Of a stretch of 64,000 nt of DNA, positions 2,091-7,866 are shown piece after piece. This DNA is from Albibacterium bauzanense (GTDB lineage: Bacteria > Bacteroidota > Bacteroidia > Sphingobacteriales > Sphingobacteriaceae): contig NZ_SMGO01000003.1 in NCBI RefSeq assembly GCF_004339765.1, positions 248,001 to 312,000 of the forward strand. The letters are read 5' to 3'. The position numbers were made by a program, and so were the translations under genes. The notes beneath the pieces are model-generated. The model had not been told where the DNA came from. It searched no databases and saw only the letters and a list, made by a program, of their open reading frames with translations. Every line of letters starts with the position of its first letter. Within the stretch, counting starts at the first letter, position 1.

Positions 2091-4847
2091 ATGAAGAAAA
2101 AAATTACTTACAAAAGAAACCCTTTATTACTAGGCGTTTCGCTATTAATTGTCGCGACAAGCTATATGACATGTCGAACTCCTTATAATCCGGGAGCTGA
2201 CAACTATAGCAAAGTTGGACCTGCTGTAGAACTTCCTGAAGGTGCTGACCCTGAAGGACCAGATTGGAAGGGTATCGATTTAGCTCCTAAAGCTCCGGTA
2301 CTTCCATTATCTCCTTCAGATCAGGCTAAAAAATTCGTTTTGCAACCGGGTTATGCAATGGAACCGATCTTAACAGAACCACAAATTGAACAACCAGGTG
2401 CAATTTCGTTTGATGGAAACGGACGTATGTTCGTTCTTGAACTTAGAAGCTACATGTTGGATGCAGATGCAACAGATGAACTGGAGCCAACAAGCAGAAT
2501 ATCAAGATGGGAAGATAAGAATAACGATGGTGTTTACGAAACAGGTACTGTATTCGTTGATAGCCTTGTGTTTGCACGTTTTGTATTGCCTTATGGTAAA
2601 GATGCGATCTTAACCATGGAATCTAATACAGATGATGTTTACAAATATACCGATACAGATGGTGATGGAAAAGCTGACAAAAAAGAACTCTTTACCACAC
2701 GCTTTGGTCGTTCAGGTAATGTAGAGCATCAGCAATCATTCCTTTACTGGGGAATGGACAACTGGCTATATAGTACCTATAATGCATTCCGTGTACGCTA
2801 TGATGGATCAACTCGTGAATCAACCGGAACAAATGGTGCGGCATGGGGTGTTACGCAGGATAATGATGGTAAAATTTGGTTCCAGGGTGGCGCAAGTGGT
2901 GTACCTACCTATTTCCAATTCCCGATTCATTATGGAAGATTCAATGTAGAGGATCAATTGGCAGAAGGTTTTAGAGTTCCTTGGGGATCGCCGGTTTTAA
3001 TCTCTGATATGCAAGGTGGTATGGATCAGATTAGAATGCCTGACGGTTCACTTAACAGTACAACTGGAGGTGCAGGAAATGATGTATTCAGAGGTACTCG
3101 TTTGCCTGAAGAATTAGTAGGACAATATTTCTATGGTGAAGTGGTTGCTCGTATCGTTCGTCAGATCAATCCGGTTGTAACTGAAGGGCTTACACAGGTT
3201 CACAATGTTTTCCAAGATCAAAAACAAGAATTCATCCGTTCAACTGATCCATTATTCCGTCCGGTTGATATGACCACTGCCCCAGATGGTACAATGTACA
3301 TTACTGATATGTATCATGGTATTATTCAACAAGGTCAATGGACTCCAAAAGGAAGCTATTTACGCACGAAAATTGAGCAATATCAATTGGATAAAGCTGT
3401 AAACATGGGCCGTATCTGGCGTTTGACTTACAAAGGAATGGACAGAGATAAAACTCAACCAAGAATGTTGGACGAAACTTCTGCTGAGTTAGTAAAACAC
3501 CTTGATCATCCAAATGGATGGTGGAGAGATATGGCTCAACAATTGATCATTTTAAATGGTGATAAATCAGTTATTCCAACTTTAGAGCAAATGGCTCGTA
3601 CCGATAAAAACTTACTAGCACGTTTCCATGCAATGTGGACTTTGGAAGGTTTGGGTGCTTTGAAACCTGAATTGGTTCGTGAATTGATGAAAGAATCAAA
3701 CCCTCGTTTACAGATTCAAGCAATCCGTGCCAGTGAATCTTTATACAAAAACGGTGATCATTCATTTGAAAATGATTATAAAGCTTTTGCTAAAAACACC
3801 AACACAGACATCGCTCTTCAGGCAATCATGACTTTAAATACGCTTGATGTTCCGGACGCTGCTTCAACTATTAAAACAGTTATAGCTGCAAATAAAGCTA
3901 AAGGAATTCAGCTTATTGGTGAGCAAATACTGAACCCACCAACTACTGGTGGTAATGCCAATGCAATGGCTACCTTTAATGCTTCTGAGCAAGAAGTTAT
4001 GAAGCGTGGAGCAGTGATCTACAATGAATTATGTTCAGAATGCCATGGCGATAATGGTACTGGTACTCTTATTAGTCCGGGTGTTTTAATGGCTCCGTCA
4101 TTTGCTGGAAATCCACGTGTACAAGGTAATCATGAATACATAACCAAGGTTTTATTAAAAGGACTATCAGGCTCAATCGAAGGAAAAGATTATGCTGGTG
4201 GTGTAATGGTTCCAATGGGAGAAAACTCTGACGAATGGGTTGCATCTGTATTATCTTATGTTCGAAATAACTTTGGAAATAGTGGTTCTTTTGTAACTAC
4301 AGAAGATGTTGCAGAGATGAGAACAAAAACAGCTTCGCAACAAGCATTCTATGACTACAATGAGTTAATATCTAGTATTCCTAAAGCTTTGACGATTAAT
4401 TCTAATTGGAATGTTACTGCCAGTCATGCTCAACCTACTTTAGTTGGAGGTAAAGCTGCTGCAAGTGGAGCGTTTAGTTTTGAAGGCTGGACAACCGGTG
4501 TTAAGCAAATACCTGGGATGTGGTTCCAAATAGAGATGCCGGTTGAGACAACAATATCTGGATTAGAATTTGACTCGCCCGGGGCAAGAACTCAAGGAAC
4601 TACTCCTCCTACTACACTTGAAACCTATCCCCGCGAATTTATTATACAAGTTTCGATGGATGGAAATACCTGGACACAGGTGGCCCAAGGAAAAGGTAGC
4701 AGTAGAAAAACCTGGATACCATTTAAACCAGTTAAGGCTAAGTATGTAAAAATTACCCAAACAGCTACCGCCGAGAATGAAAGTCCTTGGAGAATGCAGG
4801 CTATGAAACTTTACCAAGTTGGAAGTATTAGTTTAGCTTCTAACTAA
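2091..4847 (+). CDS. PVC-type haem-binding c-type cytochrome lipoprotein, copy 2
   Basis: This 918-residue protein starts with a hydrophobic signal followed by Cys28 (YMTC, a weak lipobox), so it is probably a lipoprotein. Residues of roughly 80-430 form an NHL/PQQ-like propeller (membrane-bound dehydrogenase type) with an acidic calcium-loop-like motif DTDGDGKAD at 188-196. Helical HEAT-like repeats follow (about 450-600). The cytochrome c domain has CSECH with Cys648, Cys651 and His652 and a MVPM segment that could give the axial Met. The C-terminus (about 760-918) is discoidin-like and ends in a short basic-rich strand. Family members are thought to oxidise sugars or alcohols and pass electrons to haem, but the substrate here cannot be told. 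It is near-identical to copy 1 in the middle and diverged at the C-terminus. Confidence 0.88.
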   Translation: MKKKITYKRNPLLLGVSLLIVATSYMTCRTPYNPGADNYSKVGPAVELPEGADPEGPDWKGIDLAPKAPVLPLSPSDQAKKFVLQPGYAMEPILTEPQIEQPGAISFDGNGRMFVLELRSYMLDADATDELEPTSRISRWEDKNNDGVYETGTVFVDSLVFARFVLPYGKDAILTMESNTDDVYKYTDTDGDGKADKKELFTTRFGRSGNVEHQQSFLYWGMDNWLYSTYNAFRVRYDGSTRESTGTNGAAWGVTQDNDGKIWFQGGASGVPTYFQFPIHYGRFNVEDQLAEGFRVPWGSPVLISDMQGGMDQIRMPDGSLNSTTGGAGNDVFRGTRLPEELVGQYFYGEVVARIVRQINPVVTEGLTQVHNVFQDQKQEFIRSTDPLFRPVDMTTAPDGTMYITDMYHGIIQQGQWTPKGSYLRTKIEQYQLDKAVNMGRIWRLTYKGMDRDKTQPRMLDETSAELVKHLDHPNGWWRDMAQQLIILNGDKSVIPTLEQMARTDKNLLARFHAMWTLEGLGALKPELVRELMKESNPRLQIQAIRASESLYKNGDHSFENDYKAFAKNTNTDIALQAIMTLNTLDVPDAASTIKTVIAANKAKGIQLIGEQILNPPTTGGNANAMATFNASEQEVMKRGAVIYNELCSECHGDNGTGTLISPGVLMAPSFAGNPRVQGNHEYITKVLLKGLSGSIEGKDYAGGVMVPMGENSDEWVASVLSYVRNNFGNSGSFVTTEDVAEMRTKTASQQAFYDYNELISSIPKALTINSNWNVTASHAQPTLVGGKAAASGAFSFEGWTTGVKQIPGMWFQIEMPVETTISGLEFDSPGARTQGTTPPTTLETYPREFIIQVSMDGNTWTQVAQGKGSSRKTWIPFKPVKAKYVKITQTATAENESPWRMQAMKLYQVGSISLASN

Positions 4848-4926: not shown

Positions 4927-6573
4927 TTATGCTTCACAACTTACACAGGTAACCATATTGGCAATAAACTCCTTTGACACACTCTGACTTCTTTGATAGT
5001 AAAGAGTCTTAACACCAAGCTTCCATGCTTCTATCATCAACATATTGACATCCTTTATAGGAAGATTAGAAGGAATATTCAGATTCAAACTTTGAGCTTG
5101 ATCAATGTATTTTTGACGGATAGAGGCTTGCTGTATAATCTCGAGTTGACTTATTTCTTTAAACGTTTTAAAGACAGCTTTTTCTTCAACAGACAATTCA
5201 TTTAAATGTTGTACGCTACCATGATTAAGCATAATACTTCGCCATATATCTTCATTATCCAACCCTTTCTCAACCAATAACTGCTTTAAATATTTATTCT
5301 TACGCATAAAATTACCTTTAGACAAACCAGCTTTATAGTAATTGCTACTAAAAGGTTCAATACCTGGCGAGGTTTGACCAAGAATTGCAGAAGAAGATGT
5401 AGTAGGTGCAATTGCCATTAAAGTTGTATTCCTTCTGCCGTAGTTTTTCAAGATCTCTGGCTCTCCATAAATACTCGCCAGCTCAACACTCGCTTTATCA
5501 GCTTTCTCGCTAATATCTTTAAAAATAAGACTGGTCAGAGTTTTAGCTTCCATACCTTCAAACGGAATCTTATTCTTTTGCAAATAAGAATGCCACCCCA
5601 TAACTCCTAAACCCAATGCACGATGCCTTTTGGCAAAACGATTAGCGGAAGCCAGGTAATAGTTATCTTCTGTTTTAGCAATGAATTCTTGCAATACTGC
5701 GTCTAGAAAGTAAATAGCGAGCTTTACAGCACCCGTATCTTTCCATTCATCATAAAGCTCTAAATTCATCGAAGAAAGACAGCAAATAAATGACTCATCA
5801 AAATTAGAAGGCAAGGCAATCTCTGAACAGAGGTTGCTTGAATAAATCTTAAGATTTTTATCTTTATAGACTTGTGGTTTATTACGATTGATATTGTCAG
5901 TAAAGAAAATATAAGGCAGCCCTTTCTGCTGCCGGCTTTCTAAAACCTTAGCCCAAACTACCCTTTTATCGGTATCTCCATCAATCATTTCCTGCATCCA
6001 ATAATCAGAAACACAAACTCCATTAAACAGATTTTGTATTGGATTGCCGATATTCTTAATCTCTAGAAACTCTTTAATATCCGGATGATCAATATCAAGG
6101 TAAGCAGCAAATGCACCCCGGCGAACCCCTCCTTGCGATATTGTATCCATCGCTGTATCAAACAGTTTCATGAAACTTACCGCACCACTGCTCTTTCCAT
6201 TATCGGTTACAGCACTTCCGCGTTCACGTAAATGTCCGAAATAACCAGAGGTACCCCCTCCTATTTTGGTCTGCATAATTACCTCTCCAAGCTTATGAGT
6301 AATACCCTCAATATGATCGGGTACATATACATTAAAGCAAGATATTGGCAAGCCTCTTTCTGTACCCATGTTTGCCCAAATTGGTGAACTCAAACTCATC
6401 CAGCCTTTTTCTATCATTTCGATAAAAGCTTCAGCGAGCTCTGGTTTATATAATCGTTTTGCTGCAGCCATGGCTATCCTTTCGATAGCAGTTTTTGTTG
6501 TTTCACCTTTCAACAAGTATCCTCGGTTAAGTACTTGCTGACTTTCTTCATTTAACCACCAAAGTCTTTCCAT
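4927..6573 (-). CDS. nrdA: class I ribonucleoside-diphosphate reductase, alpha subunit
   Basis: This is the large catalytic subunit, reducing ribonucleoside diphosphates to deoxyribonucleotides with NrdB as radical source. The 548 residues keep the core barrel: Cys79 (PISCF) and the Cys264/265 region form the substrate-reducing pair, Asn247-Leu-Cys249-Ser-Glu251 is the NxCxE radical site, a Tyr-Tyr pair near 525 serves radical transfer, and the C-terminal tail has CVSC (Cys543, Cys546) for re-reduction by thioredoxin or glutaredoxin. It is about 200 residues shorter than E. coli NrdA because the N-terminal ATP-cone is absent: the protein begins just before the catalytic domain. It lies 21 nt downstream of nrdB in one operon under a cobalamin riboswitch. 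Confidence 0.95.
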   Translation of the reverse strand: MERLWWLNEESQQVLNRGYLLKGETTKTAIERIAMAAAKRLYKPELAEAFIEMIEKGWMSLSSPIWANMGTERGLPISCFNVYVPDHIEGITHKLGEVIMQTKIGGGTSGYFGHLRERGSAVTDNGKSSGAVSFMKLFDTAMDTISQGGVRRGAFAAYLDIDHPDIKEFLEIKNIGNPIQNLFNGVCVSDYWMQEMIDGDTDKRVVWAKVLESRQQKGLPYIFFTDNINRNKPQVYKDKNLKIYSSNLCSEIALPSNFDESFICCLSSMNLELYDEWKDTGAVKLAIYFLDAVLQEFIAKTEDNYYLASANRFAKRHRALGLGVMGWHSYLQKNKIPFEGMEAKTLTSLIFKDISEKADKASVELASIYGEPEILKNYGRRNTTLMAIAPTTSSSAILGQTSPGIEPFSSNYYKAGLSKGNFMRKNKYLKQLLVEKGLDNEDIWRSIMLNHGSVQHLNELSVEEKAVFKTFKEISQLEIIQQASIRQKYIDQAQSLNLNIPSNLPIKDVNMLMIEAWKLGVKTLYYQRSQSVSKEFIANMVTCVSCEA

Positions 6574-6594: not shown

Positions 6595-7569
6595 TTAAAA
6601 CAAATCGTTCGCTGTAATACTTTTATCATGCTTGGTATAGTCTACTGGCCGCTTTGCAAAAAAATCGTCCATACTATTTGCAAAAACCTCTTCTTCAAAC
6701 CAAACCATCGGTTGGTAATCACTCTCAGAAACATTAAATACCTTTTGCAAGCCTATTTTATACATGCTATCATCAACCCGGTACTTCATAAAATTGAGAA
6801 GATTCTTTTTGCTGACAATATCGATCTCGCCTTGTTCAAAGATCCAGTCTAGTATTTCTGATTCAACTTGAATAGAGTGTAAAACGATATCTGAAATTCT
6901 TTTTTTAGTAGCATCATCAAAGAACTCAGGAAACTCTTCTTTAATTTTATTTACAATATACATTCCCGCGTTTGCATGAACTTGCTCATCAACAGAGGTC
7001 CAAGCAATGATATTACTGATATTTTTCATCACTCCTCTAAATCGGGTAAATGAAAGTATAATTGCAAACTGACTAAAAAGGGATACATTTTCTATCAGCA
7101 TAGCAAATAGAACCAGGGAGAAAAGATATTCTTTTTCGTTCTCTGATTTACTATAAGCTAAGGCATCTGAGAGGTAGGCAATTCTCTTCTCTATAACAGG
7201 TACATGAATTAATTGCTCAAATTCATTATTGTAACCCAATACTTCTAAAAGTCGAGAATATGCCTCAGAGTGTCGAAACTCACATTCAGCGAAAGTAGTT
7301 CCTAAGCCATTAAATTCTGGCTTAGGTATATGGGTGTATAGGTTGCCCCAAAAAGACTTTACTGAAACTTCAATCTGCGCAATTGCGAGCAGACTTCTCT
7401 TGATAACTTCCTTATCATTAACACTTAAATGAGAATGGAAATCTTGCACGTCTGCAGTGAAATCTACTTCAGAGTGAACCCAATAAGACTTATTAATTGC
7501 CTCAGTAAAATTTAAAATCTCAGGATATTCAAAGGGCTTATAGTTTATCCTTTTGTCGAAAATGCTCAT
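6595..7569 (-). CDS. nrdB: class Ia-type ribonucleotide reductase, beta (radical) subunit
   Basis: This 324-residue diiron subunit generates the tyrosyl radical for NrdA. Metal ligands are recognisable: Glu67 (in the place of Asp84 of E. coli), Glu97 and His100 (ExxH), Glu160, and Glu195 and His198 (DEQVH). The radical Tyr104 follows the first ExxH at the expected distance, so this is the tyrosyl rather than the tyrosine-less type. No N-terminal ATP-cone is present, so neither subunit of this enzyme carries an overall-activity site. It is the first gene after the riboswitch. The start is preceded by an A/T-rich tract without a Shine-Dalgarno sequence, as elsewhere in the window. Confidence 0.95.
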   Translation of the reverse strand: MSIFDKRINYKPFEYPEILNFTEAINKSYWVHSEVDFTADVQDFHSHLSVNDKEVIKRSLLAIAQIEVSVKSFWGNLYTHIPKPEFNGLGTTFAECEFRHSEAYSRLLEVLGYNNEFEQLIHVPVIEKRIAYLSDALAYSKSENEKEYLFSLVLFAMLIENVSLFSQFAIILSFTRFRGVMKNISNIIAWTSVDEQVHANAGMYIVNKIKEEFPEFFDDATKKRISDIVLHSIQVESEILDWIFEQGEIDIVSKKNLLNFMKYRVDDSMYKIGLQKVFNVSESDYQPMVWFEEEVFANSMDDFFAKRPVDYTKHDKSITANDLF

Positions 7570-7711
7570 ATTAATAATTTTTTATTTTTTGAAATCCAAA
7601 AGCTAAAAAAGTAATATGTACAAACGGATAAACGAAAGCAGGGGATTCTTGTTGAATACCCTTGTATTCATTCGGACATTTACTTTTCTTGCGAAAGCAA
7701 AGTCAAGCAGA

Positions 7712-7820
7712 TAAGGAAGGTAGCCTGGCTTTAGAATTAATTCTCTATTTACAGTTGCGCAACAGCTCGTGAATTACACACGATTCCCCTCTTTTTATTA
7801 CAGGTGCAATACCTTATTGC
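7712..7820 (-). promoter_or_regulatory. cobalamin riboswitch upstream of nrdBA
   Basis: Read on the minus strand, the region holds the conserved parts of the B12 aptamer in order: P1 arm AAGGTA (7815-7810), a GGGGAAT core (around 7788), a GTGTGTAATTCAC hairpin with GAGC, GTTGCGCAACTGTAA (around 7762-7748), and the B12 box AAGCCAGGCTACCTTCC (7731-7715), whose TACCTT closes P1. About 145 nt follow before the nrdB start, with a hairpin GAATAC/GTATTC that may be part of the expression platform. By family knowledge such elements switch the gene off when adenosylcobalamin is abundant. Confidence 0.88.
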
Positions 7821-7836
7821 TATGATTTTACAATAA

Positions 7837-7866
7837 CAAAACTATCGTTTTAAAAATCGAATGCAA
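7837..7866 (-). promoter_or_regulatory. consensus Bacteroidota promoter for the nrdBA leader
   Basis: On the minus strand TTG (7866-7864) is separated by 19 nt from TAGTTTTG (7844-7837), an exact TAnnTTTG -7 element. The predicted start near 7830 places the transcript just upstream of the riboswitch P1 stem. Confidence 0.65.

Follow-up and report, generated by a model that had tools for sequence, protein, structure and literature searches.

A predicted short cobalamin riboswitch precedes class Id ribonucleotide reductase genes in Bacteroidota and tracks nrdJ

We have analysed a stretch of 64,000 nucleotides from Albibacterium bauzanense (the window, whose numbering is used throughout) in which one strand carries a cobalamin riboswitch aptamer, then nrdB, then nrdA. 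The features used below are as follows.

7837-7866, minus strand: promoter, presumably of the Bacteroidota type, with a -33 TTG (7866-7864), a 19-nt spacer and a -7 TAGTTTTG (7844-7837); the -7 motif recurs in leaders
7698-7830, minus strand: predicted cobalamin riboswitch aptamer, short form, 133 nt (RF00174 match, P1, compensatory changes in helices)
7758-7762, minus strand: L5 kissing loop UUGCG, complementary to L13 CGCAA
7758-7752, minus strand: conserved core GCAACTG, read from the sequence
7719-7730, minus strand: B12 box AGCCAGGCTACC (RF00174 match and sequence inspection)
7675-7704, minus strand: P13 hairpin, a conserved stem, with arm a GACTTTGCTTT (7704-7694), loop L13 CGCAAGA (7693-7687) and arm b AAAGTAAATGTC (7686-7675)
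7602-7619, minus strand: segment c ACATATTACTTTTTTAGC, the putative antisequestor, complementary to the P13 loop and arm b; 7618-7612 complementary to the start region
7567-7573, minus strand: segment d UAAUAUG, which includes the nrdB AUG (7569-7567) and pairs with CAUAUUA of segment c
6595-7569, minus strand: nrdB, class Id beta subunit, 324 aa (domain search, structure match, residues)
4927-6573, minus strand: nrdA, class Id alpha subunit of 548 aa that lacks an ATP cone (TIGR02510, 718 bits; 6dqw, 1055 bits)

An earlier note on this DNA had placed a cobalamin riboswitch at 7712-7866, before nrdB-nrdA, and the genes do follow on the same strand, nrdB at 7569-6595 and nrdA at 6573-4927. That extent takes in the promoter and the greater part of the aptamer; because the aptamer ends at about 7698, it leaves out the conserved expression platform (7704-7567). 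The note is also incomplete on three points developed below: the short form of the aptamer, the translational look of the leader, and the recurrence of the arrangement across Bacteroidota with its tracking of nrdJ.

The reductase had been labelled class Ia, and here our analysis leads elsewhere. The solved structure nearest to NrdB is 6cwo, from the class Id enzyme of Flavobacterium johnsoniae (537 bits, E. coli NrdB being far below at about 34 bits), and the one nearest to NrdA is 6dqw (1055 bits, residues 3-548). A Tyr/Glu pairing and a lysine in the beta subunit mark class Id (PMC8463856). Among the NrdB residues Glu67, Lys71, Glu97, His100, Tyr104, Glu160, Glu195 and His198, both marks are found (Glu67 with Tyr104, plus Lys71), with Glu67 at the position that an aspartate occupies in the Tyr/Asp pairing of class Ia. 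Furthermore, NrdA consists of the Ribonuc_red_lgN and lgC domains only, as in the small alpha subunits of class Id, and, also in keeping with this class, inspection of the frames flanking nrdBA (DUF7133 and MG2-domain proteins) found no nrdI beside the pair. Since the nearest structures are of class Id, Glu67, Lys71 and Tyr104 are in place and the ATP cone is missing, "class Ia" is wrong; judged by its nearest structures and diagnostic residues, NrdBA is a class Id reductase with a predicted dimanganese cofactor. Class Id enzymes use a Mn2(III/IV) cofactor that is made with superoxide. The F. johnsoniae enzyme (PDB 6cwo/6cwp/6cwq, 6dqw) is the nearest solved relative for both subunits and shares the Lys71/Tyr104 numbering and the Tyr/Glu pairing; it differs in that many Flavobacterium loci belong to another class Id branch, with no riboswitch in front. 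Adjoining nrdBA, on the plus strand, lie two tandem, very similar genes (47-1924 and 2091-4847) with DUF7133, HEAT repeats, an F5/8 type C domain and a CxxCH cytochrome-like motif.

The identity of the leader was assessed with cmscan against Rfam 15. The RF00174 match at 7830-7698 (minus strand) reaches 45.9 bits, over a gathering threshold of 31.5 (E 2.4e-08), spans the full model (1-189) and is the sole match above gathering in the whole window. The riboswitch claimed earlier is thereby recovered, and with it the B12 box (7730-7719) and the closing P1 stem (AGCAATAAGG : CCTTATCTGCT). P1 is found in 21/21 homologous leaders with sequences unrelated among them, and its mean pairing energy is -9.7 kcal/mol with its own partners versus -5.5 kcal/mol with partners swapped between species; RNAalifold on 20 leaders finds compensatory changes in P4 and P6 as well. 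Based on its score, core, B12 box, closing helix and L5-L13 kissing loop with P13, the nrdB leader holds a cobalamin riboswitch as far as sequence can tell, and cobalamin binding is predicted. Directly 5' of the aptamer, TAnnTTTG occurs in 14 of the 21 homologous leaders (shuffled sequence would give 1.05), which upholds the promoter also claimed there; we take TTG-N19-TAGTTTTG to be the Bacteroidota promoter type and predict a transcript start close to 7830.

The aptamer is of the short (Cbl-II-like) form, without the peripheral extension: in the RF00174 alignment 5 nt replace 57 model positions, and the 133 nt compare with 201 and 193 nt for the other two of the three RF00174 sites in this genome. 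These two score 115 and 101 bits, beside which 45.9 bits is modest, as would befit a decayed relic with nrdBA expressed constitutively. We consider such decay very improbable, as the five-pair kissing loops are perfect, P1 and P13 are intact, and a covariance model of the subtype, for which the window and 19 among 80 related loci supplied the 20 leaders, gives the window 113.4 bits, third best of all loci, with the window itself included in the model. The modest Rfam score is thus explained by the short subtype.

Downstream of the aptamer core, P13 was found unaided by RNAalifold in the 20 leaders, with compensatory changes; its stem shows C-G/U-A and G-U/A-U/G-C exchanges among homologues and reads, by eye and alignment, GGCUUUACUUU-CGCAUCA-AAAGUAAAUGUC in L049. 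The kissing loop is supported by the fact that L5 and L13 differ in step across the three sites of this one genome, UUGCG/CGCAA before nrdB, UCGCG/CGCGA before metE and UCCCG/CGGGGA before a TonB-dependent receptor gene. In the window L5 and L13 match perfectly over five pairs, in many relatives over fewer. L4 (UGUAAUU) was dropped as a candidate for the kissing loop: the UCCCG position is L5 (PMC10653944), which here reads UUGCG and fits L13. An apparent bistable pair in the window at about 7667-7641 (GAATAC-AAGG-GTATTC / GGGTATTC-AACAA-GAATCCC) was likewise dropped, having no recurrence in homologues.

Arm b of P13 has an alternative partner in segment c. The b:c duplex of the window has an energy of -15.0 kcal/mol, reached by 3/200 shuffles, and across leaders own partners give -12.8 versus -9.7 kcal/mol for swapped ones, with clear co-variation in L013, L016, L049 and L055; shuffled sequences pair just as well in L011 and L012, and b:c is A+U-rich over much of its length. 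Segment d is paired in the minimum-energy fold of the window, where the AUG is largely paired whether P13 is formed (unpaired 0.04) or not (0.12). When P13 was enforced in the 21 leaders, the start region from -12 to +6 became more paired (Wilcoxon p = 0.001), and the AUG itself was more buried in 15/21 (p = 0.04), a weak effect and thermodynamically modest.

In the leader no intrinsic terminator-like hairpin with a T run was found. Together with the conserved alternative pairing that involves the start region, this makes the switch look translational on sequence grounds. Control of transcription, through termination or RNA decay and with the pairing near the AUG incidental, has known parallels: the Streptomyces nrdABS riboswitch acts on transcription (Borovok et al., 2006, as reported in PMC4991794), and in Priestia megaterium metE the P13 3' arm pairs with the next hairpin as an antiterminator (PMC10653944). 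For the present leader we judge it unlikely, given the missing terminator and the position of segment c, which ends 31 nt before the nrdB AUG in the window and 19-41 nt before it in 20/21 leaders (74 nt in L017).

Based on these results, we think it likely that the riboswitch turns off translation of the class Id nrdBA in corrinoid-rich conditions, and that dNTP synthesis then falls to the B12-dependent NrdJ. The ligand would bind the aptamer; L5 (UUGCG) would then kiss L13 (CGCAA) and stabilise P13 (a:b), so that arm b could no longer pair with segment c, and the freed segment c would pair with the start region of nrdB (d) and hide the AUG (OFF). With no ligand, the loop and arm b would pair with c as an antisequestor, the AUG would be opened and the B12-free enzyme made (ON). 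The model builds on features demonstrated by sequence comparison, namely the aptamer identity, the conserved and co-varying P1, P4, P6 and P13, the in-step kissing loops, the b:c complementarity, the class Id assignment, the presence of nrdJ in the genome and the tracking of nrdJ; we infer ligand binding, the OFF direction, the translational mode and the block by c:d pairing. An OFF switch had been proposed before, and OFF is the best-supported reading, with the direction predicted from sequence.

Bacteroidota rarely use Shine-Dalgarno sites, and the nrdB leader offers a well-defined, testable riboswitch case in such a phylum. In env8 and E. coli btuB, translation is repressed through an L5-L13 kissing loop that lends stability to P13 (PMC10907184, PMC10653944); the four-way-junction aptamer and the L5-L13 kissing loop are the same here. 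Unlike in these two, no ribosome-binding (SD) motif is involved in the nrdB leader, the P13 3' arm competes for a segment that could cover the AUG, and L5 reads UUGCG where the consensus is UCCCG. The logic of P13 and antisequestor would match the one established for other corrinoid riboswitches, namely btuB, env8 and P. megaterium metE (PMC10653944, PMC10907184), the start codon being the final target here.

The rest of the genome (3.08 Mb, 99% complete) fits this picture. The B12-dependent class II enzyme, whose presence had been predicted, was found: NrdJ is encoded at C2:998992-1000848 (555.9 bits, cut-off 399.95), and the genome also encodes MetH and a cobalamin adenosyltransferase. A search of the genome for CbiC found none. 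None of the genome's RF00174 sites lies at nrdJ. One, in the stretch L007:10220-13343 (G000:C3), precedes the TonB-dependent receptor gene, which is followed by a DUF5074 lipoprotein-like gene, a pair resembling BtuB/BtuG by position and family; the remaining one lies 5' of metE and is 193 nt long. Methionine and dNTP synthesis thus each have a B12-dependent and a B12-independent enzyme, and it is the B12-independent ones that are led by a riboswitch. This gene set has the pattern of a B12 salvager, and the three RF00174 sites together with MetH, NrdJ and the adenosyltransferase suggest one coherent regulon, which we count in favour of the model.

That cobalamin riboswitches can control B12-independent isozymes is well established (PMC3766115). 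The metE switches of this genome and of P. megaterium resemble the nrdB switch, as predicted here, in that they govern an isozyme that does without the B12 its counterpart needs, and the P13 3' arm of P. megaterium likewise has a second possible partner. They differ in the full-length aptamer (193 nt in this genome) and another kissing-loop sequence, the P. megaterium case being transcriptional.

The natural ligand deserves separate consideration. The short aptamer could prefer methyl-, hydroxo- or another corrinoid over AdoCbl and so report total or light-exposed corrinoid, a proposal that concerns the ligand only and is compatible with a translational OFF mechanism. It draws on the lack of an extension (5 nt for 57 positions) that the 201- and 193-nt switches of the genome do have, on the short env8, which was solved with hydroxocobalamin, and on the varying selectivity of riboswitches for methyl or adenosyl forms (PMC10907184, PMC9600662). 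However, length alone gives no reading of selectivity, and the genome encodes an adenosyltransferase. NrdJ, for its part, uses AdoCbl. We give this proposal the smaller share of probability, though an appreciable one.

The direct precedent is the B12 riboswitch of Streptomyces nrdABS (Borovok et al., 2006). According to PMC4991794, a cobalamin riboswitch there leads a class I reductase that needs no B12, in an organism that has NrdJ as well. By that account the Streptomyces enzyme is class Ia and control is at transcription, whereas here we find class Id, a short aptamer, a translational-looking leader and nrdB before nrdA. The class Id target, the short aptamer, whose loop pair is its own, and the putatively translational platform are what is new relative to Streptomyces nrdABS; in the open-access literature searched, no description of B12 control or of a cobalamin riboswitch on a class Id reductase was found.

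Among the 80 related loci, the short switch lies 5' of class Id nrdB in 19, with a degenerate version in L032 and a longer one in L070. The subtype model recovers its own 20 leaders at 96-116 bits, as expected since they built it, adds L032 (56.7 bits) and L070 (68.7 bits) before nrdB, and finds nothing 5' of nrdB in the other 59 loci; on the switches of the same genome it gives 63.5 bits (metE) and 44.8 bits (receptor). Of 50 genomes, a selection that covers all loci with a switch plus a range of others, 20 have both switch and NrdJ, one the switch alone, five NrdJ alone and 24 neither (Fisher p = 4e-8). The lone exception with a switch is L032, where a partial NrdJ stands at a contig end; the five NrdJ-positive genomes keep a class Id nrdB without the short switch. 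Because the rows are related to each other, the tree weighs more than this count. The switch sits in a 27-member clade (support 99/95), of whose six switch-less members five have no NrdJ (L019, L021, L024, L027, L028), the sixth being L029. The arrangement of riboswitch and nrdB thus recurs across Bacteroidota and, in the genomes compared, tracks nrdJ. The loss of the switch in nrdJ-less lineages provides a natural experiment on riboswitch retention. In L070 (4588-4758), from a Crocinitomicaceae MAG with NrdJ, the longer cobalamin riboswitch before class Id nrdB lies outside the main clade and is apparently an independent gain.

The nearest relatives of this class Id NrdB are in Saprospiraceae, Flavobacteriaceae, Crocinitomicaceae and others. 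Within its own order, NrdB of this kind was found in 0/200 other genomes (at E 1e-40) although 99/101 have some NrdB (NrdJ 31/101), for which reason the class Id nrdBA cassette was probably acquired laterally. Compared with these 200 genomes, the source genome is without the NrdB type usual in its family, which the class Id nrdBA seems to have replaced.

The arrangement would tie the choice between two DNA-precursor routes to vitamin B12 supply in Bacteroidota, for class Id enzymes. If the model holds, a B12 salvager would give up a cobalt cofactor in favour of a superoxide-requiring manganese cluster, and how much manganese and oxygen it needs would be set by the B12 that its neighbours share. 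More speculatively, and with doubts of our own, the short aptamer with its own kissing-loop pair could be a dedicated, transferable cobalt-to-manganese switch of a widespread Bacteroidota class Id lineage, choosing between NrdJ and a superoxide-activated dimanganese enzyme, perhaps responding to a corrinoid form other than that of the cell's uptake and metE switches, and kept only while nrdJ is kept.

Some loci have features of their own. Several Paenimyroides genomes and that of Flavobacterium sp. xlx-214 have nrdJ and nrdBA as divergent neighbours. This order holds for the riboswitch-led nrdBA of L018, L011, L012, L014 and L022 (G208, G201, G202, G204, G212), so that a single locus houses two reductases that differ in cofactor. 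The class Id nrdA frame is 885 aa long in G219 (L029) and 953 aa in G215 (L025), against about 550 aa, possibly through an intein-like insertion or a fusion. Finally, the L049 contig (PBYL01000286.1) is labelled Thalassovita (Alphaproteobacteria), yet carries a Bacteroidota-type nrdB with the switch, and is probably mis-binned.
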